This document shows, in pieces, positions 7,581-43,984 of a stretch of 64,000 nt of DNA (positions are counted from its first letter, which is position 1; each line of letters starts with the position of its first letter). The notes beneath the pieces were generated by a model that was not told the DNA's origin, did not search any database, and saw only the letters and a program-made list of their open reading frames with translations. This DNA comes from Agrocybe praecox. Lineage: Eukaryota; Basidiomycota; Agaricomycetes; Agaricales; Agrocybaceae. Made by a program: the position numbers and the translations under genes. The stretch spans positions 806,001 to 870,000 of the forward strand of contig OZ024842.1 of the NCBI GenBank assembly GCA_964017145.1, written 5' to 3'.

Positions 7581-8194
7581 TTTATTTTTATGAGCCCTTC
7601 AATTTTACTTCCTGTTTTTTTTTTCTTTCTTTTTCGCACGTGTGCTATTTTTAGATCATCACAAAGTACTATATTCTTTTTCTATCATATACATCGGAGT
7701 CAAAAACGGAAGGATCAAGTAGAAACACTTATGTTGTCTCTGCAGTAAATGTGTACAGATAAATCTTTCTGCCCTTCGGTCACTTTCCGTTGACTTTCTG
7801 ACTGTCCTGGTCTAACTCGAGTGGCTGTGCACCTGACGTGACTTACCCTTTACCGCCATGCCCACGTGCGTTGATCCTATGTTGTTCACCAAACATAGAT
7901 TTGTTCCTGGTGTTCCTGGCCGTCTATGTATTACTCCCGGCCGAAGGACTAATAGAGCCGCTGAACTCGAGCTGCAGTTTCATTCTCTTTGTTCAACAAC
8001 TTTGTTCATCTTTCCTGGGGTTACAAAAGGGACTATTTGAAGTTTCTGTGAGTCTCGCTCTTTCATATGGGTTAAGTCTGTTCTCACGTATCTATGTAGA
8101 TAGTCATTGCCCAACTCTGAGCAGCGAGCGGGTCAGGGCCACTGGCCAGGACTCTTTTTGAGGTTACTTTTTGCCAGCGACGATTTGGTCACCG
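7581..8194. other. Promoter region of the acyltransferase-like gene
   Basis: About 600 bp between a 5S gene and a membrane-protein gene. Open frames here (7838-8161 and 7858-8040) are low in coding character and overlap each other; I see no supported gene. Confidence 0.4.
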
Positions 8195-11100
8195 ATGCAT
8201 GAGGTTGTTGGTATTCACGATGTTTTGAAGGTCATCGATGAACAAGAAGAATGGGAGCAATCACGCATAGTTACAGCTCACTCCGGTGTAAAGGGAATCA
8301 ACGGGGAAGAAGATGGCGAATGGGTGGCCAGAATGGACCAGAAGCACGATGGATTGAAAAAACGATATTCGCCTCAAAGCCGGGGACCAGAACTAGATAA
8401 CCTGCGCAACATCATGATCATAATCCTTATTTTCCACAACTCGATCCTCGAAACTATCACCAGCTATTCAGAAGATGTCGAAAAGAAATATCCCAAACAA
8501 TTCGTCTTTCTTTCTCTCGTTTCAGGCGTCTACCGCACCGTTGCTGTCAGCTTGTTCTTCTACATATCTGGTCAGGCTTCGTGGATCTGCCTCGTTATCC
8601 ACGCCAGCTCGACTCACCAGTTCCTCCTAAAGAAGATTTGGAGAACAATGTGGTTCTCAGCGAGCTGTTACGCGGTCTCACTAGGCACGCAGTACGTGTA
8701 TGGACCATGGCCGACAGAATTGACAAATTCAGGAATGTCATATTATGCCACCCAAGCTGGGAAGAATTTAATGCTGCAGGGACCCATCTACTACGCTGGA
8801 GCGCTTCTGCTTTTTGATTTCTCCTTCATACTTTGCAGATACCTCCACAGACGCTACTGGCGCGTCAACCTCGTCGAAAGGTTCATTGGTACCGAAACTC
8901 GATTCAAAACCGTGGATTGGATCATACTCGTATTCCTCATATCATTCGTAATGTTCGTCCTATCAGGGATGATTAACCCACCCGCTCGACTCACCTATAT
9001 CCCAGTTGACGCACATTTTCCTTTCACTTACATCCTCGCCTATGCTGCTGCCGTTAATAACTCCGTTCTACAGAAAGTTTGGTTGAAGACCCACCTGCGA
9101 CGAGCCAGCCCGCGCATTTTCGTATTATTAGTCGTCTGGAGTCTTTTTTTCGCATTCGGGACACTCTTTGTGCTTTATCGATACTTCCCCACCCTCGTGT
9201 TGGGATACATTTCCGTCAAGTCGGCACCCCACCAAACTATGGAGGTTTTAACGCCTCCCGCTCTGTCAATGGCCACCAGACTCTTTGCCATGTGGATAAT
9301 AAACACTCATAACACGGTCTTGAAGGTGGTCGTTTCTTGCATGTACACTGGACTTAAGTGGATTATGAAGAAGGACTTTGGGATTCTTTCAGCGTATATG
9401 TATCTGCAAACTATGATTCACATGTTCTTCGTCATTGGATTTGCACGACATTCGTCCTGGACTGGCGGTCCCATTATGCGGTTCGTTTTCGTAGGGTCGA
9501 GTTCTATCCTTTGTGGATGGATTGTTACCCTGGTGCCGGTAATAATCTGGAGACTTATCACCATGAAGGATATTCCGTCTGAGGGCGAAGAGAAGCAACA
9601 GTTGACGGAGGAGACAGCGAGCAGTGAGAACAAAACCGAGCATGGGAAAGTGGTCGATTCAGAGTCGACTGTAACTGAACTGCAAACTTATTCGGTCGAT
9701 GGCGTCGTCGTATCAGAAAAGCCTGTAATTGTCATGGAGTCTGTGGAGACAGCGACGCTACCCGCAAATGTGCAGGAACCTCCAGAGCAGGGCATCCCAA
9801 GAGTCAAAGATTCGAGAGCATTGTCATCGGAGGGACCTCGTCTTGAGGATCACAACAGAGTATCAGAGAAAAAGGGTCTGGACGTAGCGCAAGACTATCC
9901 GAAGCCGGATGAAGGGGAAGCTGACGCCCGTGGCGAAGGCTCAGAAGATAGCGAACAACAGGAACCACTACTTGAAGGCAAAAGATCCGAGGGACACGAC
10001 GTCGCCCATGGAGAAAAGCGGGCTCTCATCCTCGACGTCACGCGGGCTTTCTTCATAATGATTTTAATTTTGCAGACCACAATCGCACGCATCGACGGGA
10101 GCATCGCAGAAGGTGGTATGAAAACCACGTCACCAAAGTTGTTCGTAGCTTTGTCCTTCTTCAAAGCTTTCTATCAGACTGTCTCCATCCCCTCGTTTTA
10201 CCTGATTTCTGGCGTTTCATCGTACATCTGCATGTCCACGGATCACAGGAAGACACCCTCTCGTTTCATTTGGAAGAGGATATTGCAGTTGTTTTTGGTG
10301 ACGTATGTTGGGATGAACATGGATTGGGCTGCACGTCGGTTCAATGGAATGTCGCCTGTGGAAGGACCCAAAGGTGCTCGTGCAGAAAGGGGGGGCGAGA
10401 AATTAACGCTGTTCCCAGCCATCACCTACTTGATGTTGCTCGTCCCACTCGACTTTGGCTATTGGCTCCTGCGAACAGCAACCCATAAATCGCAGTACCT
10501 AACACGACTTTTCGTATCGCGCAAACGCTATTTCACAATTCAAGTGATGTTATTAGTTGTCCAACTCGTCTATGCCTCGTTTACACTAGGAGGTCATGAT
10601 TTCTTCATGGCGGCGACATGGAACCTCGATGCTCAGTTCCCTCTGTCATATATCATTGCGTATAGTGTGGGTGTGAATATTTCATACCTTGCACCATACC
10701 TCGCTCGCTCGAGACGAAGGATCGTCATAACAGCGATACTGCGCGTTCTCGTTACGTCCGCAGCGCTCTCCGTTCTTTACTTCCGCATCTCTCCCGTCCA
10801 ACTTCCAGAATACCTCAGTCCAACTTCCCTCCCGCACCGTATAATGGACGCAGGAGCATCTAGAGACAGCCGTGTCGCCGTATTCTTATTCGAATGTTGG
10901 TCCATGGCTACATTCTTATTGCTCGCCGAGAGCGTAGCATCTTTCCTGCTGTCGACGGACCAATCAGAACTACTATCCGGATACCCGCAATGGCTGCTGT
11001 TTCTCGTGCGCAACGCGAAATGGTTCTCGTTCATCCATGCCTCGTTTGTCGTTGTTCTGGTTTATCACACCAGCAGCATTGGCGACCTTTCCGTTAGGAT

Positions 11101-11251
11101 TCCATTTGTAGCTGTCGGTTCGGTTGTTTGCGTCTCGGTGGTGATGCTTCTCGTTTCGTGGATTCTTGCTTTGCAGCGTACGAAGGCGGTGCTGAATTGG
11201 ATTGTGGAGAAATTGATAGGTCGCCATGTTGCGCGTATTTTCATGGTTTAA
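8195..11251 (+). CDS. Double-domain acyltransferase-3-like multi-pass membrane protein
   Basis: Single-exon gene of 1018 aa. The open frame extends to a TTG at 8171, but the first ATG is at 8195 (MHEVVGIHDVL). It has two similar membrane halves, roughly residues 65-460 and 620-1010, joined by a charged, Glu-rich cytosolic-type linker. Each half resembles the AT3 family (OafA/OpgC type). The first has LRNIMIIILIFHN (Arg to His, one residue shorter than the bacterial R-X10-H signature), LFFYISGQAS and FLLKKIWRTMW. The second has DVTRAFFIMILILQT, FYLISGVSSY and FIWKRILQLF. In the second half the catalytic-type His is Gln, so it may be non-catalytic. AT3 proteins move acyl groups onto carbohydrates or lipids across a membrane; substrate unknown. 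It is a close paralogue of the transposon-interrupted gene at 26.9-44.0 kb. Confidence 0.7.
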   Translation: MHEVVGIHDVLKVIDEQEEWEQSRIVTAHSGVKGINGEEDGEWVARMDQKHDGLKKRYSPQSRGPELDNLRNIMIIILIFHNSILETITSYSEDVEKKYPKQFVFLSLVSGVYRTVAVSLFFYISGQASWICLVIHASSTHQFLLKKIWRTMWFSASCYAVSLGTQYVYGPWPTELTNSGMSYYATQAGKNLMLQGPIYYAGALLLFDFSFILCRYLHRRYWRVNLVERFIGTETRFKTVDWIILVFLISFVMFVLSGMINPPARLTYIPVDAHFPFTYILAYAAAVNNSVLQKVWLKTHLRRASPRIFVLLVVWSLFFAFGTLFVLYRYFPTLVLGYISVKSAPHQTMEVLTPPALSMATRLFAMWIINTHNTVLKVVVSCMYTGLKWIMKKDFGILSAYMYLQTMIHMFFVIGFARHSSWTGGPIMRFVFVGSSSILCGWIVTLVPVIIWRLITMKDIPSEGEEKQQLTEETASSENKTEHGKVVDSESTVTELQTYSVDGVVVSEKPVIVMESVETATLPANVQEPPEQGIPRVKDSRALSSEGPRLEDHNRVSEKKGLDVAQDYPKPDEGEADARGEGSEDSEQQEPLLEGKRSEGHDVAHGEKRALILDVTRAFFIMILILQTTIARIDGSIAEGGMKTTSPKLFVALSFFKAFYQTVSIPSFYLISGVSSYICMSTDHRKTPSRFIWKRILQLFLVTYVGMNMDWAARRFNGMSPVEGPKGARAERGGEKLTLFPAITYLMLLVPLDFGYWLLRTATHKSQYLTRLFVSRKRYFTIQVMLLVVQLVYASFTLGGHDFFMAATWNLDAQFPLSYIIAYSVGVNISYLAPYLARSRRRIVITAILRVLVTSAALSVLYFRISPVQLPEYLSPTSLPHRIMDAGASRDSRVAVFLFECWSMATFLLLAESVASFLLSTDQSELLSGYPQWLLFLVRNAKWFSFIHASFVVVLVYHTSSIGDLSVRIPFVAVGSVVCVSVVMLLVSWILALQRTKAVLNWIVEKLIGRHVARIFMV

Positions 11252-26925: not shown

Positions 26926-29642
26926 TCAACTACCATCCCCCCGTTCCATTTCCATCACAATCCTATCCCAAGCACCACAAAGCACCACCCAAGCCTGAGC
27001 GAATGAAGCCGCAAAATAAGCCGTAAGGGGGATGCTGACGAGCGGAAGTACGAAGAATCTGATAATGGTGAGGATATAACGACTGGCAATGGGGGACTCG
27101 TATGCTAGCAAAAATGACATAAACCTCAACAACAAATTAAAGCACACGTTCAAGTACAACGAAATGGAATCAGAGACGACTGGGTAGATGCTCGTAAACC
27201 ATATGGGGCTCGTGAGGAGGTAGGACTTCCAGCTTGGCTCTTCGAAGGAATTTGGCTGCACTCTCTCGGAGTTCAATGGATGGGATGCGGAGTCAGAGTG
27301 AAGGAACACGATGGACGCAGTAAAGTCTACGAAGACGACAAAAGCTGCGATTGACCATGCTACGTATAGGTACGTGGCCTGCAGTACCGCTGTATCCACT
27401 TTTACGTTTTCAGGATCGGATTTCCCTCAGCCTGCCGAGGTCAACTCCATTGGATCCCTTGTCGGATCGATGATATGTTTTGTGATATGTCCCGTAGAGC
27501 CTGTATGAAAAGAAAGAGCGTAAAGAACCGCTGTAAGTAATGAAACGCGCCAGATCGCCCCGAGAATGATATGATAGTATATGCCCCGTACCGAGCCCCG
27601 AGTTCTCGTTCTGTTATTTTTATAGAACCCCGCCATGGTACGTACGTTGACTCCCATAACGTACGCTAAGACACACAGAAGCGGGAACGTGTCGTTCTTG
27701 TCCGCGAGGGGGTTGGGTAGGAGTTCAAGTTTGTACTTCATCGGAACGAAGAGGGAATAGACGACTTGGGTGGAGAGGAGCGTTATTGAGGTAAGGATGA
27801 AGATAAATCTAGATCCAAATTCTTGGTTATCGCGTAGGGTGACCAAGTTCCCTTTCCAATGATGTCGATTGATATCTCTCCCGATTGCATACACGCAGTC
27901 GAACGAAATGAGCGCTGATATATAACGTATTGGGCCATACAGAAGGTTCATCCTTCCCTCTTCACTTGCCCAGTAAGCGTACCAAAGGTGGAATTCATGT
28001 TTTTCGGCATGACCCCATACTAAGCGACCAGACTCCCATCGAATAAACTGTGCAATCAAAAACATGCACGTCCCTGAATATATGGCCGTCCCGCACTTTC
28101 TGATGATAAAAGCCGGTGCATTCCTACTGTAGCACGTAGACGTAGACATGCATATATACGACGAGATGCCAGAGACGAAGAATAGTAACGGGATGATGCA
28201 CGCTCTGCGGAATGCGACGAGGAATGAGGCAGATATGAACAGTATGGGGGAGTTGGTTTTGCTGGTGTCATAGGGATTTTTTGGTAGTTGCACTACGGAA
28301 CTGGAGATTACTTGAGCCGTCGAGTCTTGAATGACTAGGAGAACGATTAGGATCGCTCGTGCAATGTCGAGGATTGGAACACGAAGTTTGTATGTGTCTT
28401 TAGGATCTTTGTCTTTATCTTTAGCCTTGTCTTGTGGTCCTTCGGATTCCTTTGTAGAAGCGCTCGTCGTCGTCGTCGTCGTCGTCGTAGGAGAAGTAGA
28501 AGTAGAAGTTCCAGGAGAAGTGCCTGCCAAAGTACTGCCACTCGCCATCTTATGAAGAACGTCCGACTGTGTATGTGCACTTCCCACTCCCACTGCCTCC
28601 TCATCAACATCTACCTGATCGTACGATCGGTGTCGCACTATCCTCCTTCGAGTTCGCCATAGAAGTATCAAAAGCGGAATGATACCCACAACCCAAGTAC
28701 CTATTACAGATCCGACCCCAACCACCACACATCTGCAAAGTAAACCCAACGTACCCGTCCACCGCGCCGAGAGGCACCCAAGGCTCAAAACGACAAACAT
28801 ATGTATCACAACGTGCATCTGCGCCAGATAACCCCACGCAAGAAGGCACCGTTTCCATTTCTTCCCGAATCGACTGGTATGACCATGACTTGGCACGCCG
28901 CTCAATATATTCGGTCCTCGAGTATAGAACAGTCTAAAGAGCATAGTGAGCAGCGTGTTGAAGGTGTACAGTGACCACAGCGTGTACAACACAGCTGCTG
29001 TGCCGGTCCACGGACTCGTCTCTATTTGCCTGGTGAGAGTCACTGGCATCACCACCGAAGCTCGGCGGCCAGTGGATCCCGTCGGTATGGCAAACGTCGT
29101 ATGACTCGTGTGAGGCGGAAGTTTGGGGCTGACGTACGAAGGAATGCAGGTGGGAAAATAGCGATAGAGCGGATAGAGCGTCCCAGAGCTAAGGAAGAGG
29201 TGTGTGGAAATCGGAAACCTTGGGGAAAGGATTCCTCTGATGGTTGGCTCCGCGAAATAGCGCGCAATGGTTTGAAAATTCACCCCTGTGAAATAAGCGA
29301 TCATGTAGAGGAAAGGAAAGTTTGCATCAGTGGGTAATATACCAGTAGGTATTCGGGCCCAAGCTGTGAAAGTTGCGCCGCCGCCGCCCGGAAATTTCAC
29401 GATGAATGGACTGATGCATTGGGTGAGAACGAGTATTGGGTAGATAATCCGCAGTGTGATTAGCGCGCGTCTGCTGATTGACGCGTAGCTGACTTTGTCC
29501 TCGATAAGCTTCCCAAGGATGTTCCCTCGACGCCGATTGTATTGACGGCCGATGTAATAGACGGTGTCAAGGATGAACTGGAAGACCGTATAGTATATCG
29601 GCGCGTATAGCAGGGACAGTTGGCCCGCTTGTGTGGCATAAT
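26926..29642 (-). pseudogene. 3' part of transposon-split acyltransferase-3-like gene
   Basis: Minus-strand open frame from the element edge to 26926, broken by one in-frame TGA at 27427-27429. It is homologous to the intact 8.2-kb gene from YATQAG onward. The rest of the first membrane half, a Ser/Thr-rich linker with a Thr run, the second half (DIARAILIVLLVIQDS, FVSGISSYICMS) and, past the stop, the last helices are all present. No splice sites around the TGA could remove it. As in the paralogue, the second half has Gln where the first has His. With the 43.4-44.0 kb fragment it would total 1110 codons. Confidence 0.85.
29640..29642. repeat. Left target-site duplication (AAT)
   Basis: AAT directly before the left terminus CACTGTGA; matched by AAT at 43369-43371 directly after the right terminus. 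Using one copy restores the host frame. Confidence 0.85.
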
Positions 29643-29657
29643 CACTGTGAACCCCGG
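29643..29657 (+). repeat. Left terminal inverted repeat
   Basis: CACTGTGAACCCCGG; pairs with the reverse complement of 43354-43368. Confidence 0.85.
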
Positions 29658-30271
29658 GCCCGGGTAAATACACTATGTAATAGGGTTAAAAAAGAAAAAT
29701 ACCATGTTAACGGGGCCGTAAATGGCAATCGTTCATTTTGTAGCACACCTAGGTATTAATACCATAAATTTACCAGTGGAAAGTTAAACTAAGTAAAATA
29801 GCTCGGATAACGCGCCAGGGGTAATATGCACAGTTTGACGAAGCATTATAACCCAATTCAAAACTGGTGAAAATCTAGTAAAAATATTACCCGGTAAGAA
29901 GTTGCGTTTAGCGGGTCATTCCGCAGAGTATTTAGTACCCTATGAAGCAGAGCATTTTACCGCGTAAAACCATCCAAAATAGAAGGAAACCATGTCATAT
30001 TATTGCCGGAATATCAAGGTAAAAACACTAAGTACAACAGGCCTAAAAAACCACGAAAATCAGGATAATATATTGAAGGGTATTTTACACCGGTTTACCG
30101 GCCAACCCCCAGAGGGCGAAATAGCCACGGAAATCAAGGCCGAGATTCAGGTATCAAGGCAATTTCAAAATCCGAATAGATAGGTTGTTATTGGTATAAA
30201 GAAATGTAGTTAATTTAGAATGAGCTCAGAATACATTGACAATACAGTAAATATGCAATAGATGTTGTAAG

Positions 30272-30353
30272 GTTGATATATAAATAACAGTAACTTTCGT
30301 ATTTCATTTGTCAACAAATGACGATAACTTCCGTCTTAGGATAAATAATTCAT
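30272..30353 (+). repeat. Internal 82-bp inverted repeat, left copy
   Basis: Contains CAGTAACTTTCGTA, the palindrome TTTGTCAACAAATGACG and ACTTCCGTCTTAGGATAAAT. It is near-identical to the reverse complement of 42200-42281. It sits just outside the left palindromic array. Confidence 0.85.
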
Positions 30354-30940
30354 CCCTCCCATGTGTATAATAAATCTCTGTGCACTTATCCATCCGTGTA
30401 TAATTATCCCTCCCATGTGTATAATAAATCTCCGTGTACTTATCCATCCATGTATAATTATTCATCCCGCGCATGGATAAATCGTCGCTGAATTTGTCCA
30501 TCCCGTGCATGGATAAATCGTCGCTGAATTTATCCATCCCATGCATGGATAAATAATCGCTGATATTATCCATCCCGCGCATGGATAAATCGTCGCTGGA
30601 TTTATCCATCCCATGCATGGATAAATAATCGCTGATATTATCCATCCCGCGCATGGATAAATCGTCGCTGAATTTATCCATCCCGCGCATGGATAAATCG
30701 TCGCTGGAATTATCCATCCCGTGCATGGATAAATCGACGCTGAATTTATCCATCCCGTGCATGTATAAAATCGCGCTGGAATTATCCATCCTGGGCATGG
30801 ATAAATCGTCGCTGGAATTATCCATCCCGTGCATGGATAAATTCGCGCTGAAAATATCCATCCCGCGCATGGATAAATTCGTGCTGGAATTATCCATCCC
30901 GTGCATGGATAAATCGTTGCCAAATTTATTCATTATTTAT
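30354..30940. repeat. Left minisatellite of 36-bp palindromic units
   Basis: About 13 clean copies (30463-30930) of a 36-bp unit made of the near-palindrome TTATCCATCCCGCGCATGGATAA plus a spacer ending in CGCTGAA or CGCTGGA, preceded by more diverged units from 30354. Because 36 is a multiple of three and the unit lacks stops in several frames, it creates long 12-residue-repeat open frames on both strands; these are not treated as genes. Confidence 0.92.
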
Positions 30941-31104
30941 CCATCGGCCTTGGATTAGTAAATTACGTGCGGCGCTTATTGATAGAAAGACGGGCATATA
31001 TTCATTTTCAGCGCTTACTAATGATTTGCAATGAATTATCATCCACAAATGTTATTCATTATGTATGTTTTTATCCGCCGACCCCATACCCACAGGTATT
31101 ACTA

Positions 31105-34076
31105 CTAGGTTCCCTTCGCTTTCTTTCCCCTTCCCTTTCCAGCGGATGGTTCACTTGCTTTGCGTTTCTTACTGGTAGTATCATCCCTTTCCGTCATCGT
31201 CTGCAAGCAAGCGGTCATATCCTCCACCGCACTCAACCACAGTCTTTGGTCATCCACGTTCGCCCACCATTTCAAGCCGATCAACACAGTGACTATTCCG
31301 GTCGGACCTCCCTTGTTTAGCATAGCGAGACTCACATCCTCAGCCTGGGATACTGGGATGGGTAATCCATTTTTGATTGTGGGGTTCCTTCTCCCAACCG
31401 GCTGTAGTGAGCTCCACCACGCCAACCACTCGTCTGAAAACCCTTTTTGGTTGGATATCTCGGGAATGCTGTGGTACTTGCGCGTAGAGACCCAACGGGA
31501 AAGAGCAGCGGGTCGACATTGGGCACCCATGCGGTGCTAGTTTCACGACTGTTAGTCCCATGTGTTACACCAGAAAATATTTGCTTACCGAGCTACTTTC
31601 AAATTGAGTCTTTCGCTCAAAGTCTATCCATGCCTTCACGCACGTAACCCAGGGCTGGGAGTCTATTTTTTCGATCAGGTACGCTTCGGCAGTTGTAATC
31701 CATTCGGGCATTGCAGTGGAATTGACTTGTTGCTTTTCGGTAAGTGGGACAACATCTTTAGGTGCCGCGCTTTTTCTGCTACGTCTTCCATCCAATATCA
31801 GAGAGGCGTCATTGTTCAAGTTATTGGCTCTGCCTCTAGTGCTTCCCTTGACCTTCAACTCGCTGCCTCCGAGTTGCGTTCCTGGTTCCGAGCCCAACAC
31901 CGACCCCGGAACGACTGGCGCTGAACTCGGATCACAAACCGGTGATGCTGACGAGCCCAACCCTGGCACCGGAACCGCTGGCTCCGAACTCGGATCACAA
32001 ACCGGTGATGCTGACACAGCTGAAGTAGGAATTGGCGCCACCGAATCAGTAGGTTCCGAGCCCAACGATGACATAGGAACTGCTGGCGCAGCACTTGAAC
32101 TCTGAGCTGGTGACGCCGACGCAGCAGAAGCGGGAACCAATGTTCCTAAACTTGGATCTGATACAGGTGGGGACATAACGGCAGACCGAGCGACGTTACT
32201 CTGGAATATGTCTGCCTGCACCTGCTGTACGAACTGGCCCTGGTACAATCCCGGTTGCTGTACATTGCTGTACCCATGTACTGACTGCTGCTGAGACTGG
32301 ACCACGTCTGCCTGCACCTGTTGTACCGGTACTGACTGGGGCTGATACAATCCCGGACCCGGTTGCTGTACGCCATTGTACCCATGGACTGACTGCTGCT
32401 GGGACTGGACCACGTCTGCCTGCACCTGTTTTACCGGTACGGACTGGGGCTGATACAATCCCGGATCCGATTGCTGTACAATATTGTAACTTTGGACTGA
32501 CTGCTGCTGTGACTGGAACACGTCTGTCTGTAGCTGCTGTAGAGGCTGTGATCCATATCTTAAGTCGGCAGTGGACCAAAAGTCGCCCTGATCGTCCTGA
32601 TCAAAGTTGGCGAGAAATTCATCCACGATTTCCTGATCCTCAGGTCCCAAACCAGTTGCTGCATGGCTCAAATCTGCGCGAACCCCATTTGGGAAAATGT
32701 CACTCCATGATAAATCTCCAGACCTTCGAAGACCATTGTTGGTGGTGTCAGGGAAGAGGGGTCTTATGTCGCCGTTAGGATTTGGAAAGATGGGTGCGAC
32801 ATTTCCAGTATGGATTGGCAAAAGAGGCATCCCTCCAGCACCGTTAGCGATTTCTCCAGGTCTGGGATTGACAACAGGTCCGGGATTAACAACCTCGTGG
32901 TTTGCCAGGGCCTTCGGTGGGGCGACATTTCCTGTATGGTCCGATACAAGAGGCGCCCCTCCAGCACCGTTAGCGACTGTTCTAGGTACGGGATTGACCA
33001 TATCGCAATTTGGCACTGATCCAGATGGTTGAAGGGGCGGTTCGGCCGTCTGTTCTGCTTTCTGCTCTTCTACGATGAACTTGGCGCGAGAAGCAGGATC
33101 TTTGAATACCGCGTTCGCAAAGTCGGTAAATGGTTGCATGATATCATCTTCATGGCGTGGGTGTGCGACGCGGAAGGATCGACCGTACTCGTCCTTGCCG
33201 ACATGTACCGAAATTTTGCTGATACCTCCTTTCAAAGTGTTGTCGGGACCAGCAGCATAAAAGCTACAGATCCATCCGGAGCGTATCTTAGTCGCCTCGC
33301 AGAACTCGGTTGCTGAGCCGGCGATTGAAGCTTGGCCGCTATTTAGGGAAAAACATCAACCATCAAAAGAGAAAAAATCAAGTGGTATACGTACATCAAA
33401 TATTGTTCTGGCGTAAGTTCATCATCCTTGGTAGCGCTCAGAATTACCTGATCATTGGTAACCGCTTCGATTTTCTTCTCCTCTTCCTGCTTTCGTAGTT
33501 TCCTTATCTCGTCCTTGATTTCATCGGTTTCGTCCCGGAATTTCTCGGCAGCAATCCGGTTTGTAATGGTAAGGCGTTTCTTTTTGTCAGCGTCAGGGTC
33601 CTTTTTAACTTCCTCGTCAACAAAAGGTTTGATGCGCTCGGCGTAGTATTTCTTCACGTAGAGATGGATCTCGGATGGTATGCGTGATGTCGACGGCTGC
33701 ATAGTAATTTTAACTTGCTTGGACTTGGCGCGGCGGTTCGCTTTTTCGAGTGAGTGGTTGTTGTACCAGTTCCGAATGTTCTGACCAAATAAAAATTAGT
33801 TGAATGGCGAATGGATTAGAAATTGACGGTAAGTACCTTCTTTCGTTCCTCGACCCACTTTTCATGTGTCAAATCTGCGACATTCTTGACTTTCTTCTCA
33901 CCGGCGACCCTTGATTCTAGCTCTGATTGAGCGTCCTTCCAGATTGTAAAAAACTCAGATTCTCTCTTCGGCCAGAAAAGCACCAGGGTCTTTGTAGTCT
34001 GCGCTTGCGAGAATTTTCCAAGACCATCTTGGAGAAATTTGATTTGGGCCGCGTTGGCCCAAGGAGGAGGAGGCAT
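31105..34076 (-). CDS. Transposon companion protein of 935 aa, Gln-rich, function unknown
   Basis: Four exons (34076-33837, 33780-33395, 33338-31589, 31536-31105) stay in frame for 935 aa. Residues 1-210 include WPKRESEFFTIW, a NIRNWYNNHS motif and a charged coiled-coil-like section (DEIKDEIRKLRKQEEEKK). A folded-looking section follows (IRSGWICSFYAAGPD, ISVHVGKDEYG). The centre is low complexity with three copies of a 36-residue Gln/Val-rich repeat (about 32200-32520), then Pro/Ser/Ala. The C-terminus has WLAWWSSLQP and ends in a basic nuclear-signal-like tail (KGRGKKAKG). This arrangement resembles unnamed proteins that accompany KDZ elements in basidiomycetes. I infer a role in DNA binding or transposition; no domain is named with confidence. 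Confidence 0.75.
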
Positions 34077-34525
34077 CTATAAGTAGGTTTCATTTAAGCG
34101 CGCGCCTGTGGGTATGATGAGCGACTTACCTTTTTTTTTATAGAGCCGCCGGGTATTTTCTGTGTAGTGTGTAGATTCAACAAAGGACGCTATACAAAGT
34201 TTTTGGATATTTTTTGGTCTCTTGGTACGTCTGTCTTCTTTGGTAGGGTCCAGAAACGCGGAGACGCGGAGACGTGCCATTATTAAACTTAAAAATCTTT
34301 TCCGCGCCTTCCCTTTGCTGCAAATGTCGCTTGCCGAACATCCTTGTTGTGTCCCGCTCCCTCAAACGTTTAATGCCGTCCATCCTCTCGAAGGAATGTT
34401 AAATTATCAACTGTATAGCTGGTCGTGTGGGTTCTCACGGCTCGCATACAAAAGGCGTACCTCCAACCAGCGACGGTTTCTTTCCATCGCATCTTGGCAT
34501 ATATCTCACAAAGCATTATATCAAC

Positions 34526-35275
34526 ATGACCTCTACCTTCCCCGACCTTGCCAGCAGTGCCTTCGGATCGAAGACCTTCCTTCAAGTGATTGAAGATTTT
34601 CGTTCCCTCGGTCTCGATGTCAAGGTCTCCATCAGTCCTCGCACCCCTGAGGCTGGAACTCAGGCAGCACCAACTCAGGCAGCACCAACTCAAGCAGCAC
34701 CTGCAGGTATGCATATCTCTGTGCCACCGCTCTCTTCTCTCGCTGACTCTCGCAACAGTCTCTGCTGCTTCTGCTGGTCCTAAGGAAGCACCGGCTGCTA
34801 ACGTCAATGCTATTCGCACGGTCGGTGTCACCAGCCGTAAGTCGTCATTTTTCCGCTGTATCCTTCGCCTCTGACATGATCTCTAGGCTCTCCCTGGGCT
34901 AGCGGTCCCGCCCCCGTTGAAGCCATCGTTGGTACCACCCCCGTCAATGTCAACGCAGACCATGGAGCCAACACAGTCGCTGTGGCCGACAACGACAGTA
35001 ACTCTTCCGAGCCTGCTACCTCCGATGATGACAAGACTGTTGCCCATTATGTCGTCTTTGCTGGAACCAAAGTTGGGGTTTTCCGCTGCAAGTAAGTTTT
35101 TCTTCTATTTTCTTTGTTGTCTATGGTCTTATCCAATTTCAATAACAGCAACGAAGCAAAGTCCTACATCTCTGGCGTATCTCATGCGTCCATGAAGCGC
35201 TTCCCATCGTTCAAGGAAGCCACCAAGGCCTTCCAGGATGTTGTTGCTGAAGGACTCGTTGTTGTCCTCCACTAA
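34526..35275 (+). CDS. RNase H1 N-terminal (viroplasmin-like) domain protein
   Basis: Four exons (34526-34706, 34759-34836, 34887-35091, 35149-35275) encode 196 aa. After a Ser/Ala/Pro/Thr-rich region with three copies of TQAAP, the C-terminal 50 residues match the hybrid-binding domain at the N-terminus of eukaryotic RNase H1. The match covers YVVFAGTKVGVFRC, then an AKSYISGVSHASMKRFPSF core and a closing EATKAF. There is no RNase H catalytic domain. Such stand-alone domains bind RNA-DNA hybrids or double-stranded RNA. Sited between two companion genes inside the transposon, it is probably element cargo. A basic guess is binding of transposition or R-loop intermediates. Confidence 0.72.
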
Positions 35276-35435
35276 AGGCCTACTGCCTACCGTCGCTCGT
35301 TTTCTTCCCCGTATTGCATTGTCTAACGCTCATCCCTTCTAAATTCCTCTATCTCCCCTTATATCACTGTATCTAACCTCCGCTGCTTGTACACGTAGAC
35401 TATTGCCGAGTTACAAAATATATTGTTGCCATTGT

Positions 35436-36122
35436 TTACTTTGCCTGATACATAAACTCCCCATTTTTATGAGTCTGCTGAAGTTCGTCCATCCCCAGAT
35501 GTGAATATACATATAACTCGTCAACCCAGTTCACTGCATCAAGAACCGCTTTTGTAATTTCCTTGATCTTTCTGTACGTGTCATTAATTCCCACAAGAGT
35601 AAGCACCTCGTCTTCGTAGCGATACATAGCGTTGCGCAATAGGTGAAGCGCGGAGAGTTGTTCGTCAATAAGATTCCTATCTTCATCTTGTACGTATTTC
35701 GAGTATAGCCCATCTAGATAATCAACAAGATTACCATTTGAGGCGCGTCTGTATAAGCGGTTCTGGACTCGTATCGCGCGCTCGAGCCAGACAGCGACTT
35801 GTCGGTCAACATCCGATACAAACGTCTCTTCGGAACGATTGGGAGGGTCGGTCACTTGAATATCCAAGTCTTCAGACCTTCAAATGTATATGAGAGGAAT
35901 ATTGTAACCCAAGGAAAAAATACACGCACTGAGAACATTGTTTGGCTAGCCCTCGTGCTTTCCTACGTCTAACAAGTAGAATATCTTTGACTCTGTTGAG
36001 AAAATTTAGTATGTAACAAAAGAATAAATACTTTCTGCATACTTGTCATAATGTCGTTTGCTTTTTGCTCGATTAGCCGCTGTTTTCTCTTCAGCAGTGT
36101 GGTATAAACGTGGGCAGCCCAT
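35436..36122 (-). CDS. Transposon companion protein of 194 aa with basic N-terminal motif
   Basis: Three exons (36122-36043, 35992-35930, 35877-35436) encode 194 aa. The N-terminus MGCPRLYHTAEEKTAANRAK is followed by a basic, helical segment (SKRHYDKK) and resembles short basic motifs common in unnamed mushroom proteins. The rest is helical and charged (VAVWLERAIRVQNRLYRR, LSALHLLRNAMYRYEDEV), without known domain. It runs opposite to the gene on its left, sharing the 160-bp gap 35276-35435. Likely nuclear and element-encoded; function unknown. Confidence 0.65.
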
Positions 36123-36630
36123 GATGATGGTTTAGGTTTACCTATGAAATCGTGTTCGACTCTGTGCGCATTTTGGCGCCATTCTGACTTTTACTCCCTC
36201 GTTTACTTATAGCCTTGATATGTATACCATACGAAAGGTATATTTTTTCTCCGTATTATGAGCTAGTTTTCTACATATATTATGCTGCAGATAATTTCCC
36301 GCAGAATTTTTCATGTTAACAGGTTGTATATATTTATTCTTATGCGGGACGCAGTATCCGGGCGCTTAAAAATCTGGCGTTGCCGTGCCGGCGGTAACTG
36401 GCAATCAAGATCTAGCCCTACAGTCTTAATTTAGGACATTCCTTCGCTATTTTGGATTCTAATTAAACATAATCACCACGACAACTTCCACAAAAATATG
36501 AATAAATGTCCATCATTTATTCATCGACTCACCTACCAATAAATCAACGTGGGTGGAGGTTAGTTTCGCGCTATTTTACCACTCCTCTCAACCTCCCACC
36601 AGTCTATCTCGGCGTGTGCTACGATAAACC
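36123..36630. other. AT-rich divergent promoter gap inside the element
   Basis: Lies between the (-) 194-aa gene and a (+) 174-aa gene. Contains two short runs of the ATCATTTATTCAT type near 36500-36540 that recall the minisatellite sequence. No gene seen. Confidence 0.4.
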
Positions 36631-37267
36631 ATGCCTTATGTGAGTTACACTTCCATACGTACGGCCGTATATTCACTTACTGATATGCCGAAGTTCTTAC
36701 ACTCTGCGCAAATTCTCCGCCCACACCCAGACGTGCGTCAGGCCCAGGTCGAACTCATCCTGGACATCGGACCATATTACAAGAAGGCCAAGGAGCTCAA
36801 AGAAGAAAAAGAATTCTTATCCAGACTGTGGACACTGTGGTTTATCCGTTGGAGACTCAAACCGGGCGATTTTGATGGTGACTTGGAGCTGTTAGAGTAT
36901 ACGCGAGGCCTTCTGAAGACAGTAAGTAACTAGTATGCGGTCTCTATGCCTTGAGTATACTTACGTTACCCTGAAGGCAATCAAGAAAGACCTCTTTTGG
37001 TCCGCATCGTACCAGCACAAATCGAAGGTTTCATGGTCGTGGCAGAAGTTTATGGACTGCTGCGAAGTTCGATGTGGGATGATTCCTTATGTGAGTACAT
37101 CGTTACACTTATGGCTTGGGGTTGTAACGCAAACCTTTAGAATTCAGAGGTTCAATAGACCGAAAGGAAAGCGCCGCATTGCCACGATGTCTACAGGAGG
37201 TTATCCTTTCCAAATTCCCCGGCATCGTTCTGTTACACGCCCCTTTGCGCCATTAGTACCTCAATGA
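36631..37267 (+). CDS. Small transposon-encoded protein of 174 aa, unknown
   Basis: Three exons (36631-36921, 36977-37090, 37148-37267) encode 174 aa. The second acceptor is at 37147; the nearer one at 37140 would run into a stop. The protein is helical and charged in the middle (KKAKELKEEKEFLSRLW) with a basic C-terminus (RPKGKRRIATMSTGG). It ends 88 bp before the transposase start on the same strand, so the two may share control. No family recognised. Confidence 0.6.
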
Positions 37268-37355
37268 TCACACGCTTTTTTGCCCTTATTATAAAGTACA
37301 GAGCTCTGTACTATTTGAAATAAATTACTATTTTCTTGGCCACCGTCCCACTTAA

Positions 37356-40300
37356 ATGCCTCCCAAGTCCAAAAAGCGACCCAGCAACGCAGATGTCTGT
37401 GACGTCAGCAATCATCGCACGCCTGCGGTATTTCGAGAACGAACAACGCACTACGAGAGCAACAGGCGTGCCATACGAATCTTCGGTGCGTTAGAGCATG
37501 AAGGCTCTACGTCTGACAACGTCATTCGTCCGAATGCTACAGAGATCCAGGCTCCTTTGCTGTCTCAAACCGAAAACATTTACCCTCGAGCTAATTCAAG
37601 TGCGGATCCTGTCGACGGAGCTGGTGACAACGATGAGGCTGACATTCATGACTCTCGAGCAATTGAACTCGAATCGATCGGCATTCGCGATCTTGGCGTT
37701 CGGAGTGTTGACGTCTCTCACGGAAAACACCCGAGGAAACGTACTCAAGCGGTGAGCTTACCATTACTATACCGTGACCTCCCATACTTAATTAAACTGG
37801 CAGGATAACCCTCTCCTATATTGGGTTCCGTATATTGACTCATACGTTGACGAGATTCTTAGGCTAGAAGGTCGGGGGGACCTAATTAATCAAACAGTAT
37901 GTGCTGGGTACCAGTGCACTCAAGTTCTCGATGCATTCCCGGTCATGGGGTTCAGATGCGACGATTGTCATGATATAAGAATGTTTTGCGGTAATTGTTT
38001 TCTGATAAAACATATGTCCAATCCTCTGCATCGTGTCAAGGCAAGTTCTTTGAATGTTTCTATGTTGGAATTGCTAAATAAAGAGATTTTTAGAAGTGGG
38101 ACGGAACTTCTTTCGAGAAAGTGACACTCGGATCAATGGGTCTTCGGATCCAACTTGGGCACCCAGCAACGAACATTTGTTCGGCACCAATGCCTTCCTA
38201 TCACGACGATTTCACAATAATCGACTCTAACGGAATACAGAAGGTACATCTGGACTACTGTGGTTGCCAGCAATCGATTCCAAAATACGCACAACTTCTC
38301 CGTGCAAAATTATTCCCGTCGACAGCTTCTGATCCGCGCACCGCTGCTACATTCAATGTTTTACAGACATTCCAGATGCTTACCTTTACGTCAAAGATAT
38401 CCGCATTCGAGTTTTATGCTTCGTTGGCACGAAGGACCAATAATACAGGTACTATGGAAATTCCGGTTAGTGCCCACTGCCCGCGGTCTCGTCATTTAAA
38501 AGACGGATGATTGATACATATTTTAGGAACGATATCATGCGTTTTTACGCATGGTACGCGAATGGAGGCATGTACGGTTATTAAAAAGAATGGGAAGAGG
38601 GCATTCCCCATCGGGAGTAAGTGGAACTCGCGAAGGAGAATGCGCTGTCATCTGTCCGGCTTGCCCTATACCGGGTATCAATAGCCCAGTGGATATGACA
38701 TCCATACCTCAAGCTGACCGGTGGGTTACGAACAATTTTTGTCATATTTATCATGCAATTAATTTCACAATAGATGGCTTCATACGCTTTTTATTGGGCT
38801 TGATGCTAATTTCCGCCTGAAGCGTTTGAATGTTTCCACGGAGGAACGTGATCCTGGACTAAATCACGGATATGCATATGTTGTGGAAGCTACTAAGTTT
38901 AAATCTTACCTTCAGACATACGACACCCTTGTCCCAGACGATAAAAGTACTTGCAACAACCATGACGCCATCAAGTCTGCTAGTATGCGAGGCGGGAAAG
39001 GAACGGCGGCATCTGGCTGTGGCACCGGGGGAGAGTGTATCCGTCATGACATGAAGCGGCCTGTGTCTGTCGGGGATCTACAAAAGGGAGAAAGGTATTC
39101 CAATTATTGCTATGATATATGGGGGAAATAAGATATACTCACCGGATTATATTTAGATATGTCAACATGGATTACTTTTTCCTTTCCAGTCTACGGCACT
39201 GGACTTTACCCCCGCGTCTCGTTGTCTCATATGACATTGCATGTCAATGGTCACGGAACATTGATAATCGTTGCAGTATCTATCCGCCAAACGTGATATC
39301 CGCAAAAACACTTGACGTGACGTATTTGGTTCCGAAATTCCATCTCCCTGCCCATATTTCCCAATGCCAGATCGATTTTTCGTTTAATCTAGTCCCCAAA
39401 GTTGGTAGAACAGATGGGGAGGCTCCTGAACGCGGGTGGGCAGATAGTGACAAGGTGGCCAGCAGCACGAAGGAAATGACTGCAGGAGGACGGCGAGATA
39501 CGTTGGACGATCATTTTGGAGATTACAACTGGCGAAAGGTGTCTGGGATAGGTAATAGTTAATAATTGCTCTCGTTCTCCGCATAAAGCAATACTGACTT
39601 CCCGGAATTAATCTTCCAGCGGATTCGCTGCTTCGCAAAGCCCTCGAGGCTCTAGAAGCCCGGAAAGAACACGTGGAAGGATTCCTGGAGTTCAACGCGG
39701 CCCTTCCAACTCAATTGACGTTGTCGTGGAGTCAGCTTTGCTGGGCCTGGGAGGAAGACAGGAGTCAGACAAATCCGTTTTTCAATCGGCGTGTTGGTAC
39801 GTTGTGTATTCATATCCGACAGCGTCTATTAATAGATATGTTAGTGTTATCCGACGCTCAAGTGCGCCTTCGATTAGCAAACGAAGATGCACGAGACCTG
39901 GCCGAGGCCAAAAAAACAGACAGCAGTAGAGCCCAGCTACACGATGAAGTTTCTCCAAGCATGCTAATCTATCAGGGCTTGGAATTTGAAGATCACCAGC
40001 AAGTATATTTGTATGTTTTTTTATAAATAATATCTGACATGTGTTCTAGGCGTCGTTTGGCTTTCGATATAAGTCAATTATCCTCAAACCCTACAGACTT
40101 AGCGCAAGCCAAGATAATTGAGCGCTCCAACTCTTTACGGCGACGAATTGAGGCATGGTTTGATATACAGAAGCTTTACATGCCTTCTGTTGCTTCATTA
40201 CGAGCCCGAAGCGATCGAGAAGGAGGCGGCACTCCTTGCGCAGTCGAGAACTTGGAACTCTATCTCCCCTCTGAGATATACGGACATGCAACTTGCGAAA

Positions 40301-41134
40301 TACGACTTATACGCCACGAATTTGATCTGCGGATTTCTCATGCCGAAAGTACCCTTAACGACTTGCGTGGGTTGCTTTTGATGCGTTCTCAAATGTGGAA
40401 GTCAAAGGAACGCTTTTCACGTGGCCAGCGCATGAACACGCGTAGTCAAGCCCTTCTTCAAAGTGTTTCAAAGCGGATCACGGAAATTGCACGAAAATAT
40501 CGCCGCATTCGAGATGCACTTGTTGTGCTTTCGGTTCCATTATTGGAATCCCAATGGTCTACCAGACTTCGCGAACTTCAAGACGATGACTTACAAGGTC
40601 TTACTTCAATGGATGATGATGGGAGAGAAGGCAGAAAGAAGCTGAAATGGATATGGACCGTCCATGGCTATGAGGACGGTGATACTCAAACCAATGATGG
40701 TAAGACTTAATTAAAGATTACCCCTCTGATCACTTAGCTTGGTTTTCAACATAGCATTGCGTATCGAATGGTGCAAAGCGCGGGCTCGAGCCCATCGATG
40801 GCAAGAGGAATGCCTCCTTCTCCGTGAGGAAATGGGACGCGTAATCAAAACGTTCCAGTATCAGGCAGCTGAATGGAAGACTCGTGCAGAAACTTATCAA
40901 GTCAGCAACGTTACGTCAAATCAGCAAAATCCTCGTCTCGCTGAGGCTGAAATAATTTCGAAGAATATCATATTTGAAGGAAAAAGAAGCTACGCGCTAC
41001 AGCAAATGCAGAGATGTAAGGATATGGGACTGCACTGTATGAAAAAGTGGCAGGGCTTTCCTGCAAGGCTTGTAGCAAAGATTGACGAGCGAGACTCAAG
41101 AGTGATGGTAGAAGGTCATACAAGGCCAGTCTAG
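37356..41134 (+). CDS. KDZ-superfamily transposase with CxC2-like N-terminal domain
   Basis: Ten exons (37356-37751, 37804-38040, 38094-38465, 38527-38720, 38774-39094, 39157-39551, 39620-39796, 39845-40010, 40050-40699, 40755-41134) keep frame for 1095 aa. A polar N-terminus is followed by the Cys-rich CxC2-like domain (GYQCTQVLDAFP, RCDDCHDIRMFCGNC, HLDYCGCQ), then GECAVICPACP. The RNase H-fold core shows the expected acidic residues in LFIGLDANFRLKR, VSYDIACQW and GRTDGEAPERGWA, with KFHLPAH between and RRDTLDDHFGDYNWRK after. A long charged helical tail follows. Intron 2 uses a GC donor (AG|GCAAGT). No frameshift or stop was found, so the enzyme is probably functional. It would cut and move the surrounding element. 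Confidence 0.93.
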
Positions 41135-41204
41135 AATGTATCAATCTTAGAATACGGAAAACAAACATGTATTGACACGGAGAAACATGAATGCATAGGG
41201 TTTA

Positions 41205-42135
41205 TTTATAGAACACTATTTTATCCATCGCGCATGGATAACTGCCCGCGGTTTTATCCATCACGCATGGATAAATGTGCGCCAGTTTTATCCATCACGC
41301 ATGGATAAATGTGCGCCAGTTTTATCCATCACGCACGGATAAATGCCCGTGCATTTTATTCATACGCCTGTCTATAAATAAATGTGCGCCAGTTTTATCC
41401 ATCATGCATGGATAAATGCCCGTATATTTTATGCATAGCGTATGAATAATTGTCCGTCTGTTTTATCCATCACGAATGGATAACTACCCGTGGTTTTATC
41501 CATTGTGCATGGATAACTGCCCGTCGGTTTTATCAATACGCTATGGATAAATGTGCGCCAGTTTTATCCATCACGTATGGATAATTGCCCGCCGTTTTAT
41601 CCATCGCGCATGGATAACTGCCCGCCAGTTTTATCCATCGCGCATGGATAACTACCCGCCAGTTTTATCCATTGCGCATGGATAAATGCCCGCCAGTTTT
41701 ATCCATCACGTATGGATAATTGCCCGCCGCTTTATCCATCGCGCATGGATAAATGCCCGCCAGTTTTATCAATACGCTATGGATAAATGTGCGCCAGTTT
41801 TATCCATCACGTATGGATAATTGCCCGCCGTTTTATCCATCGCGCATGGATAACTACCCGCCAGTTTTATCCATTGCGCATGGATAAATGCCCGCCAGTT
41901 TTATCCATCACGTATGGATAATTGCCCGCCGTTTTATCCATCGAGCATGGATAACTGCCCGCCAGTTTTATCCATGCGCTATGGATAAATGTGCGCCGGT
42001 TTTATTCATCACGTATGGATAACTGTACGCCTGTTTTCCATCGCGGGCTTTTTTATCCATGCGCCATGGATAAATGTGCGCCTGTTTTATCCATCGCGCA
42101 TGGATAAATGTGTGCTTGTTCGTCCATGAGCTATG
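41205..42135. repeat. Right minisatellite of 34-bp palindromic units
   Basis: About 27 copies of a 34-bp unit: near-palindrome TTATCCATCNCGCATGGATAA plus a spacer of the type ATGTGCGCCAGT or CTGCCCGCCGT. Higher-order blocks recur (for example 41545-41700 and 41775-41930), suggesting recent multi-unit duplication. Same palindromic core as the left array, different spacer and period. Confidence 0.92.
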
Positions 42136-42199
42136 GATGAGTCTCTAGTAGGAAGCGGGATGGATAATTACTGCTGGTATTTATTCAAAGGTACTGTAC

Positions 42200-42281
42200 A
42201 TGAATTATTTATCCTAAGACGGAAGTTATCGTGATTTGTTGACAAATCATTTACGGAAGTTACTGTACAATTGTATATCAA
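42200..42281 (-). repeat. Internal 82-bp inverted repeat, right copy
   Basis: Reverse-complement partner of 30272-30353, just outside the right palindromic array; about ten mismatches by eye. Confidence 0.85.
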
Positions 42282-43353
42282 AGGCACACAATCGCCTGAA
42301 ATATGTATGTGATAATTGAAGCGGAAATATACAAGTCCAAAGACGCGTCATAGGTTGAGTCACAATGTGACTTGTTCACTTGGGTTATAAATATAGTGCG
42401 CACAACAACATCATGACTCTTTCTTCCTTTCCACTCACTCCCCCTCTGCGACACCACAACACCATACCCTCTTGATTTTTCTTCGCTGCCTACCCTTCCG
42501 CTATTCTAGTCAGATTCAAAAGCAGGGCGCGGATCGCTCGAACAGTACGAGTTCTGGAAAGGTACATGATCTTGTGCTTGACTTTTGATACACATGCACT
42601 TAGTACTTACACTTGCTTATTTGCTGATTTAGAAGTCTCGCCCTGCATGTAAGCTTAATAAATGTATGTTTTTCTCCCCCGCCATATTGAAATCAAGCAC
42701 CTCTGACCGTGTCTCAATGATTCTGACTAGCTTCTCTGACCTGGCACCACGCCTGTAAGTCACCTCCATACTATATGAGTTGCCGCATATACTCACGTTA
42801 TATACCTCATTGTTATATCCCCCATTAGTCACGCTCAGTAGCTGCTGTAACTAATGTAATTCTTTTGTAACATTCGAATACATAGTTTTCTCGCACATAG
42901 GCATAATACCTGTTTATATACTCTCAAAATATACTCGTTCTTTCAGGGTTATAATACCCTCCTTTCTGAATGGCATTAATTACTCGAATATTGGGTGCTT
43001 TATCCCTACTTGATTCCCTTGTCTACCTGGTCTTTTCTGTACCCAGTTTACCCAGTAATTCTCAATGTTTTTTTTGCCTATTACAACAACTTAAAATTAC
43101 CACCCTTTCTACGCTTTTTAATGACTCGTTACAACGGTTCTATTTCTACTCTAACCTGGTTGCAAAATTACCCGTTTTGCATAGGCAATTCGGACATAAC
43201 CATGCTTTTTTTCACCATGTAATGTCGTACTTTTCCCCTGTTTGTCCCTACCCGTTTAACTGGTTGTGTCCAGTGTATCCGGTATTTTTTTCCGGTTCTT
43301 CCGGACTACTTGCTCCCTTTTCCGTGTCAAATACCGAGTAATTTTAACCCCCT
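42282..43353. other. Right subterminal arm of the transposon
   Basis: AT-rich with many TTACC/TACCCG/GTAA words (for example TTTACCCAGTAATT near 43045 and AATTACCCGTTTTGC near 43168), likely transposase-binding or replication-related repeats. Pyrimidine-rich, promoter-like sequence at 42415-42540. The 123-codon frame at 42970-43341 is low complexity and not supported as a gene. Confidence 0.5.
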
Positions 43354-43368
43354 CCTGGGCTCACAGTG
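43354..43368 (-). repeat. Right terminal inverted repeat
   Basis: Reverse complement reads CACTGTGAGCCCAGG, matching the left terminus at 13 of 15 positions. Confidence 0.85.
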
Positions 43369-43371
43369 AAT
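43369..43371. repeat. Right target-site duplication (AAT)
   Basis: AAT immediately right of the element; partner of 29640-29642. Confidence 0.85.
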
Positions 43372-43984
43372 ACGACTGTAAAGCTCCTTCATCTTCGAAC
43401 GTCTTACGCTGTCGTCCAGATTTCGGCCGTACTATCGGCTTTCTACCAAGCCCATAAAGGTATCCTACCATCCAAGCCCCAGCATACAATCGCAAGGAAA
43501 TAAAGATCGTGCGTCTCAATTTCTTCACCCAGAACTGGTAATCACTCTTCCCCTGGATCTCTTGTGAGACGGCGGTCGTGCACCCGGATGCGAAATACAT
43601 GATGGCAATGAAGACACTGCGATAAACTCCCATCCAAAGCGCAATGATCGTGAATTGGCTCGGCGACGTCCGCTCGATGTCCTTTGGAGAATTGGCGACA
43701 GTTACGAGCACCGAGTTGTGCAAGATGAGTATGGTGACAAGTATGGCACGCAAGTGGTTCAATTGAGTCACCCGAGCATGTTTATTTGCATAACTTGGAT
43801 TGCTAGGTGGTGGGATAAATGAGTCCGTTACTGGTCCCTTCCGACTCTTCTCCTTCTCGTGCGCTGTCTCGTCATCATGATCCAATTTGTCAATCTCTTC
43901 GAAAATCTCCTCCAGTGATAAATGGGTAAAGCGGACGTTAGGTAGGGGGGCACGCTCAGCTTGGTGCTCGCTGTTACCCGCCAT
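43372..43984 (-). pseudogene. 5' part of transposon-split acyltransferase-3-like gene
   Basis: The minus-strand frame begins with MAGNSEHQAERAPLPNVRF, an acidic N-terminus, and then the first helix (LNHLRAILVTILILHNS, with the Arg and His of the AT3-like signature). MYFASGCT and FWVKKLRRTIF follow, then the loop up to GALQSY. At the element edge the frame runs into the inverted repeat and stops in CACTGTGA (a TGA). The next residues of the protein (YATQAG) lie 13.7 kb away at 29640. The promoter and start appear intact, so a truncated protein of about 207 residues could still be made. Confidence 0.85.

Follow-up and report, generated by a model that had tools for sequence, protein, structure and literature searches.

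What has been inserted into the gene that is split between positions 27427 and 43984 of a 64,000-nucleotide stretch of the Agrocybe praecox genome (contig OZ024842.1; this whole stretch is hereafter called the window)? A sequence-only reading of the window had seen in the insert a single, complete KDZ transposon of 13.7 kb, with both ends fixed to the base, a 3-bp target duplication characteristic of its lineage and a probably recent date of arrival. The analysis presented here gives a different answer. The insertion is real and nested, and it was misread as one element: the 13,726-bp stretch almost certainly consists of two transposons, a KDZ transposon lying inside a small element with CACTG..CAGTG ends, which would have arrived in two successive insertions. 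The situation is ordinary in kind, and useful for the exact KDZ borders and the subterminal arrays that it provides.

The Split Host Gene and Its Insert

The host gene is read on the minus strand. Its 5' part begins with the ATG at 43984 and extends to 43369, and its 3' part (29642 down to 27427) is an open frame ending in a stop codon. When the flanks are joined with a single AAT, the minus strand reads open for 942 codons, from 43984 down to 27427; the product of this frame looks like a multi-pass membrane protein and aligns with that of an intact paralogue located at 8162 to 11251 on the plus strand of the window (1,029 amino acids; BLASTP identity of 27%, E 8e-69). The join point lies within an aligned S-Y-Y-A-T-Q-A-G stretch shared by the two proteins. 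These results confirm that the host frame halts at 43369 and resumes at 29640, and that one AAT restores both the frame and the SYYAT motif of the paralogue, as originally described. The insert occupies positions 29643 to 43368 and has inverted tips, CACTGTGA at 29643-29650 and TCACAGTG at 43361-43368; copies of AAT, the 3-bp target duplication of the outer element, are read directly at 29640-29642 and 43369-43371. All the bases invoked for the outer borders are thus present, and the question becomes to which element they belong.

The Outer Element Belongs to a Family of Small Non-autonomous Elements

The left 641 bp of the insert region match 15 places of this genome other than the window; at 14 of these 15, the right 1,099 bp match too. 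Once the KDZ part is removed, the left portion (29643 to 30255, plus strand; 83-94% identical to its matches at the 15 places) and the right portion (42306 to 43368, plus strand) form an element of 1,676 bp with CACTG..CAGTG ends and devoid of a transposase. Thirteen other copies in the genome are readable at both ends; they measure 1,670-1,726 bp, are 86-91% identical to the de-nested element over its length and all lack the KDZ part. Each of them starts with CACTGTGA and ends with TCACAGTG (13/13), and this pairing exceeds chance because both ends recur 1,670-1,726 bp apart in copy after copy. Exact 3-bp duplications of varied sequence flank 11 of the 13 copies, or 12 of 14 when the window copy is included; two further places, L012 and L022, were excluded from this count since their right end is unreadable. 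A twelve-base end pattern, CACTGTGARCCC, has 34 matches in the genome (29 being ends of small copies and 5 solitary) versus 8 for the reversed control. (As a side observation, the small element of the window looks like a mosaic, its left part being nearest to the copy L010, with 93% identity, and its right part to L016, with 91%.)

All 14 small copies read at both ends carry the CAC..GTG tips of EnSpm/CACTA elements. The outer element is a member of a non-autonomous family with EnSpm-like ends, to judge from the shortness of the copies, their shared tips and their 3-bp duplications. The genome contains 24 matches to Transposase_21, 21 of which above cut-off, and none of the 34 exact CACTGTGARCCC matches is near any of the listed Transposase_21 places. 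CACTGTGA is not found in L065 and L066, the two Transposase_21 regions that were read. These regions (on contigs C1 and C12, respectively) are 99.9% identical over at least 9.8 kb including the Transposase_21 gene, a near-identity that points to duplication or transposition not long ago.

The Inner KDZ Transposon Has Its Own Borders

Alignment with the small copies shows where the window departs from them. The small-copy sequence is left at ...AATACAGT-AAATATG and rejoined at AAATATG-TATGTGATAAT; where the window has AAATATG twice, the small copies contain only one corresponding heptamer, which has diverged to some extent. The heptamer is read directly at 30249-30255 and again at 42299-42305, and between its copies lies the KDZ transposon, 12,043 bp long (30256 to 42298, plus strand) and bounded by 5'-CA..TG-3'. 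Copies of the small element without the insert thus allow the KDZ borders to be placed with single-base precision. A chance origin of the 7-bp repeat was considered and ruled out, given that the insertion site is set independently by the alignment with 13 empty small copies and that each of the six further KDZ-type elements whose two ends were read has 7 bp as well.

These six elements were recognized as follows. A DNA search of the genome for related transposase genes retrieved two long relatives, on contigs C6 (71% identical) and C65 (69%), plus short pieces; both long relatives are full-length elements with perfect 7-bp duplications, GAAGAGT for the 12,921-bp element of C6 and CGCTGTT for the 12,524-bp element of C65. 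Four internally deleted derivatives, located by means of a left-end pattern together with DNA matches, have perfect 7-bp duplications too (1,829 bp with ACAGAAG, 2,527 bp with ACTTTGG, 2,465 bp with TCAAGAC and 2,527 bp with CCTCGAA). With one mismatch allowed, the left-end pattern matches 24 places (8 exactly), and most of the one-mismatch matches are at chance level because the reversed control gives nearly as many (22); elements were therefore counted only where their right end was read as well. Including the window element, CA..TG ends with an exact 7-bp duplication are found in seven of seven cases, so that the 3-bp duplication carries no information on KDZ, the value being 7 bp here. In the sequence read around the six relatives, CACTGTGA is absent and TCACAGTG appears once, inside the C6 element and away from its ends; none of the six combines CACTG ends with a 3-bp duplication.

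Alternative Readings and Order of the Insertions

The reading that we started from, namely one KDZ transposon of 13.7 kb that has CACTGTGA ends and duplicates 3 bp of its target, has in its favor that the outer ends, the AAT repeats and the rejoining of the gene are exact, and that there is indeed a KDZ transposase inside. We nevertheless consider it practically excluded by the 13 CACTG copies that contain no KDZ part and by the ends and 7-bp duplications that the KDZ part possesses for itself, while published duplications of KDZ elements measure 7-8 bp (PMC12730594) or 4-8 bp (PMC12810828) in the accessible portions of these papers, to which our statements on the literature refer throughout. 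The sequence-only reading had itself named copies with other ends or another duplication length as evidence against it, and such copies are what the genome contains. The borders defined earlier are real to the base, then, but they belong to a separate, non-autonomous element of 1.68 kb. The inverse proposal would be that the 1.68-kb elements arose from the 13.7-kb one by deletion, CACTG being the true KDZ ends, which would explain why the small copies correspond to its two outer parts joined directly. Against it, the part missing from the small copies is delimited in the window by a perfect 7-bp repeat, to which a single, rather diverged sequence corresponds in these copies, and the ends of the interior recur at six other places with 7-bp duplications of their own and without CACTGTGA ends; these six relatives lacking CACTG ends refute the proposal, which retains a negligible probability.

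As to the sequence of events, the simplest order, on grounds of parsimony, is that the small element entered the gene and the KDZ transposon then entered the small element. Alternatively, the KDZ transposon might have entered the small element elsewhere and travelled as cargo, reaching the host gene within a 13.7-kb composite that moved in the way of the small element. Such an event would be compatible with the retention of both CACTG ends and of an exact AAT duplication in the composite, and giant elements of Ectocarpus are reported to have continued transposing with other transposons nested in them (PMC12477816); still, it appears improbable, for two ordinary insertions are a simpler explanation than a hop of 13.7 kb, and no second composite was found. 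The same lack of a second composite (only the window matched the left-junction query in full) is the reason why both the order of insertion and the mobility of the composite are argued from parsimony, and it counts among the points that weigh against the two-insertion scenario as a whole. Other such points are that an exact 3-bp duplication is lacking in two small copies out of the 13, that of L020 being best read as 4-bp GCAC and that of L023 as TGA with an additional base on the right side; and that no transposase-bearing copy of the small element was found, so that a CACTA/EnSpm-type driver and the activity of the KDZ element are both inferred. Despite these points, two successive insertions remain the reading that we favor.

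As to timing, there is weak support for a recent insertion: although broken, the host frame has remained open, and yet the nearest copies have diverged, with 91% identity for the outer element, 71% for the KDZ transposase gene and approximately 92% for the short KDZ derivatives over their left few hundred bases.

Ends and Subterminal Arrays of KDZ Elements

Together the two KDZ ends make up an inverted repeat that is imperfect and some 100 bp long. On the left (30256 to 30353, plus strand), 31 poorly matched bases precede a 67-bp arm at 30287-30353; on the right (42200 to 42298, minus strand), the arm at 42200-42266 is followed by 32 poorly matched bases. The inner 67-bp arms are 93% complementary in the window, and the outer 31-32 bp are unlike each other, with CAATAGAT or CACCAGAT on the left and CAGGCG, read inwards, on the right. 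This difference between the two sides recurs in the five elements that were aligned, with scores of 114-149 versus a maximum of 69 in shuffled sequences.

Inside these ends lie arrays of short repeats, with units of approximately 33-36 bp at both ends and a common core, TTA(A)TCCAT. The left array of the window (30345 to 30917) has a period of 54 bp at 30345-30468 and of 36 bp at 30456-30917; the right array (41219 to 42138) has a period of 34. The core or its complement is present 70 times in the window element, 29 times in that of C65 and 44 times in that of C6, with less than one copy expected in shuffles, and is absent from the small element and from the 50 kb of the window outside the KDZ element. 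In the C65 element, 11 copies lie in the left 1,100 bp in one orientation and 14 in the right 1,300 bp in the opposite one, with 4 in between; the corresponding numbers for C6 are 23, 20 and 1. Opposed orientation is seen in these two elements only, since the palindromic units of the window element display both orientations at each end. Two of the four deletion derivatives were checked and both retain arrays at the two ends, even if they are far too short to contain the genes. (Besides the two window arrays, array loci are L059-L062, L051, L041 and L056, and the three full-length KDZ elements are divergent from each other.) Our literature search yielded no description of such arrays for KDZ elements in the text accessible to it; terminal motifs of Marasmius KDZ elements are referred to a supplementary figure in PMC8290104.

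Genes Carried by the KDZ Element

The transposase gene (37356 to 41134, plus strand) is represented by a nine-exon model of 1,109 amino acids free of stops, containing the KDZ domain PF18758, matched in two exons (E 3.6e-40 and 4.6e-18), and the CxC2 cluster PF18803 (7.1e-42), in addition to a weaker CxC1 match. Its nearest homologue among the best 120 of 2,169 relatives comes from the agaric Phlegmacium and is 68% identical. Accessory gene A (31105 to 34076, minus strand) is a four-exon model of 935 amino acids, equally free of stops, whose exons are conserved in the C6 and C65 elements. The splice models of gene A and of the transposase, with its eight introns, were chosen by hand among GT-AG candidates without transcript support. 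No Pfam match was obtained for gene A, and protein searches with its leading 500 residues (7,995 candidates, with many repeat words) or with residues 1-310 produced no homologue.

The remaining accessory genes lie between gene A and the transposase. Gene B (35436 to 36258, minus strand) and gene C (36628 to 37264, plus strand) have tentative exon limits; the stretch 35439-35879 of the former is 51.7-60.6% identical in amino acids to its relatives, as is the first exon of the latter at 55-73%. A tentative gene D (34403 to 35272, plus strand) is suggested by short conserved stretches at 34403-34780, weak in comparison with C65, and at 35096-35272. In every stretch counted as coding, third codon positions are the most divergent with respect to C6 and C65, and this excess supports the strand and frame of the KDZ genes; it is absent from the opposite-strand stretch 35132-35329.

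Pfam scans of the open reading frames of the KDZ element gave no TET/JBP match, and none of the 11 genome-wide Tet_JBP matches falls inside it. The only Tet_JBP match of the genome above cut-off adjoins a different KDZ gene (L067, C12:2715500-2722500), which is 27.7% identical to the window transposase over the core; its use as a branch label was abandoned, for it is too divergent.

Comparison with Known Transposons

Kyakuja elements are described as having 7-bp duplications, CA..TG ends and "no TIRs" (terminal inverted repeats), those of EnSpm as having 3-bp duplications and CAC..GTG ends, and those of Zisupton and Dileera as having 8-bp duplications (Kojima 2025, PMC12730594). Judged by ends and duplication length, the inner element resembles Kyakuja, with 7 bp and 5'-CA..TG-3' in 7/7 elements, a KDZ transposase and best homologues in mushrooms. 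It appears to differ in the inverted repeat of about 70 bp that starts 31-32 bp inside its ends, beyond the poorly matched outermost bases, and differs in the lack of a TET/JBP match, the families of Kojima having been selected for TET (PMC12730594). Zisupton and Dileera are grouped with Kyakuja as KDZ on the basis of their transposases, and differ by their 8-bp duplications. In terms of sequence features, therefore, the inner element would fit Kyakuja and the outer one EnSpm, the internal inverted repeat excepted. The outer element shares its CAC..GTG ends and 3-bp duplication with non-autonomous CACTA/EnSpm elements (PMC12730594), from which it is distinguished by having no EnSpm transposase linked to it.

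The elements KDZ1-KDZ3 of Cryptococcus neoformans are also similar, in that they measure 9-11 kb, insert into genes and have a zinc-cluster domain beside the KDZ core; that domain is CxC1 there and mainly CxC2 here, and their TIRs of 139-241 bp are accompanied by duplications of 4-8 bp (PMC12810828). A CxC2 region precedes all intact KDZ genes reported in a Pleurotus genome (PMC7641404), and earlier work already recorded accessory genes and nested insertions in large KDZ elements (PMC12477816). As far as their accessible text goes, PMC8290104, PMC7473861 and PMC9297572 leave this picture unchanged.

The En/Spm system works with two proteins, TNPD acting with TNPA bound to subterminal repeats (PMC2613891). 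It resembles the window element in its large size, in carrying subterminal arrays at both ends (those of the window element being palindromic) and in the extra genes beside the transposase, and differs from it in transposase superfamily and duplication length; a protein binding the arrays is hypothetical for the KDZ element.

Proposed Mechanism

The small CACTG..CAGTG element would have entered the host gene first, duplicating AAT, and would have been mobilized in trans, most likely by a transposase of the CACTA/EnSpm type. Later, or before the last move of the small element, the 12,043-bp KDZ transposon presumably entered it and duplicated AAATATG. This transposon is most likely autonomous and of the cut-and-paste kind. 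Its protein, which we take to be a DDE-type enzyme, would as a CxC2-KDZ transposase recognize the inverted repeats, and probably also the subterminal arrays, excise the element and attach its 5'-CA..TG-3' tips to a target whose strands are cut with a 7-bp offset.

Extending the analogy with En/Spm, we tentatively suggest that the large KDZ transposons of agarics may constitute a conserved multi-gene module, formed by the transposase with genes A to C, and perhaps also D, in which one accessory protein would occupy the TTA(A)TCCAT arrays of the two ends and thereby assemble the transposase at the CA..TG tips, with array and binder diverging together between families. We regard this possibility as doubtful at present; if true, it would mean that a two-component mechanism has arisen separately in the KDZ superfamily.

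Implications for KDZ Transposons

Taken at face value, the sequence-only reading would have placed on record a false 3-bp duplication and false ends for KDZ transposons. The nesting offers instead a better control of borders than was then hoped for, as the KDZ borders fixed here to the base are confirmed at six other sites, and the value of 7 bp supports the duplication length published for Kyakuja in 2025 (PMC12730594). The subterminal arrays, common to divergent KDZ elements and kept in the derivatives that were checked, provide a testable starting point for understanding how ends are recognized in this poorly studied superfamily.

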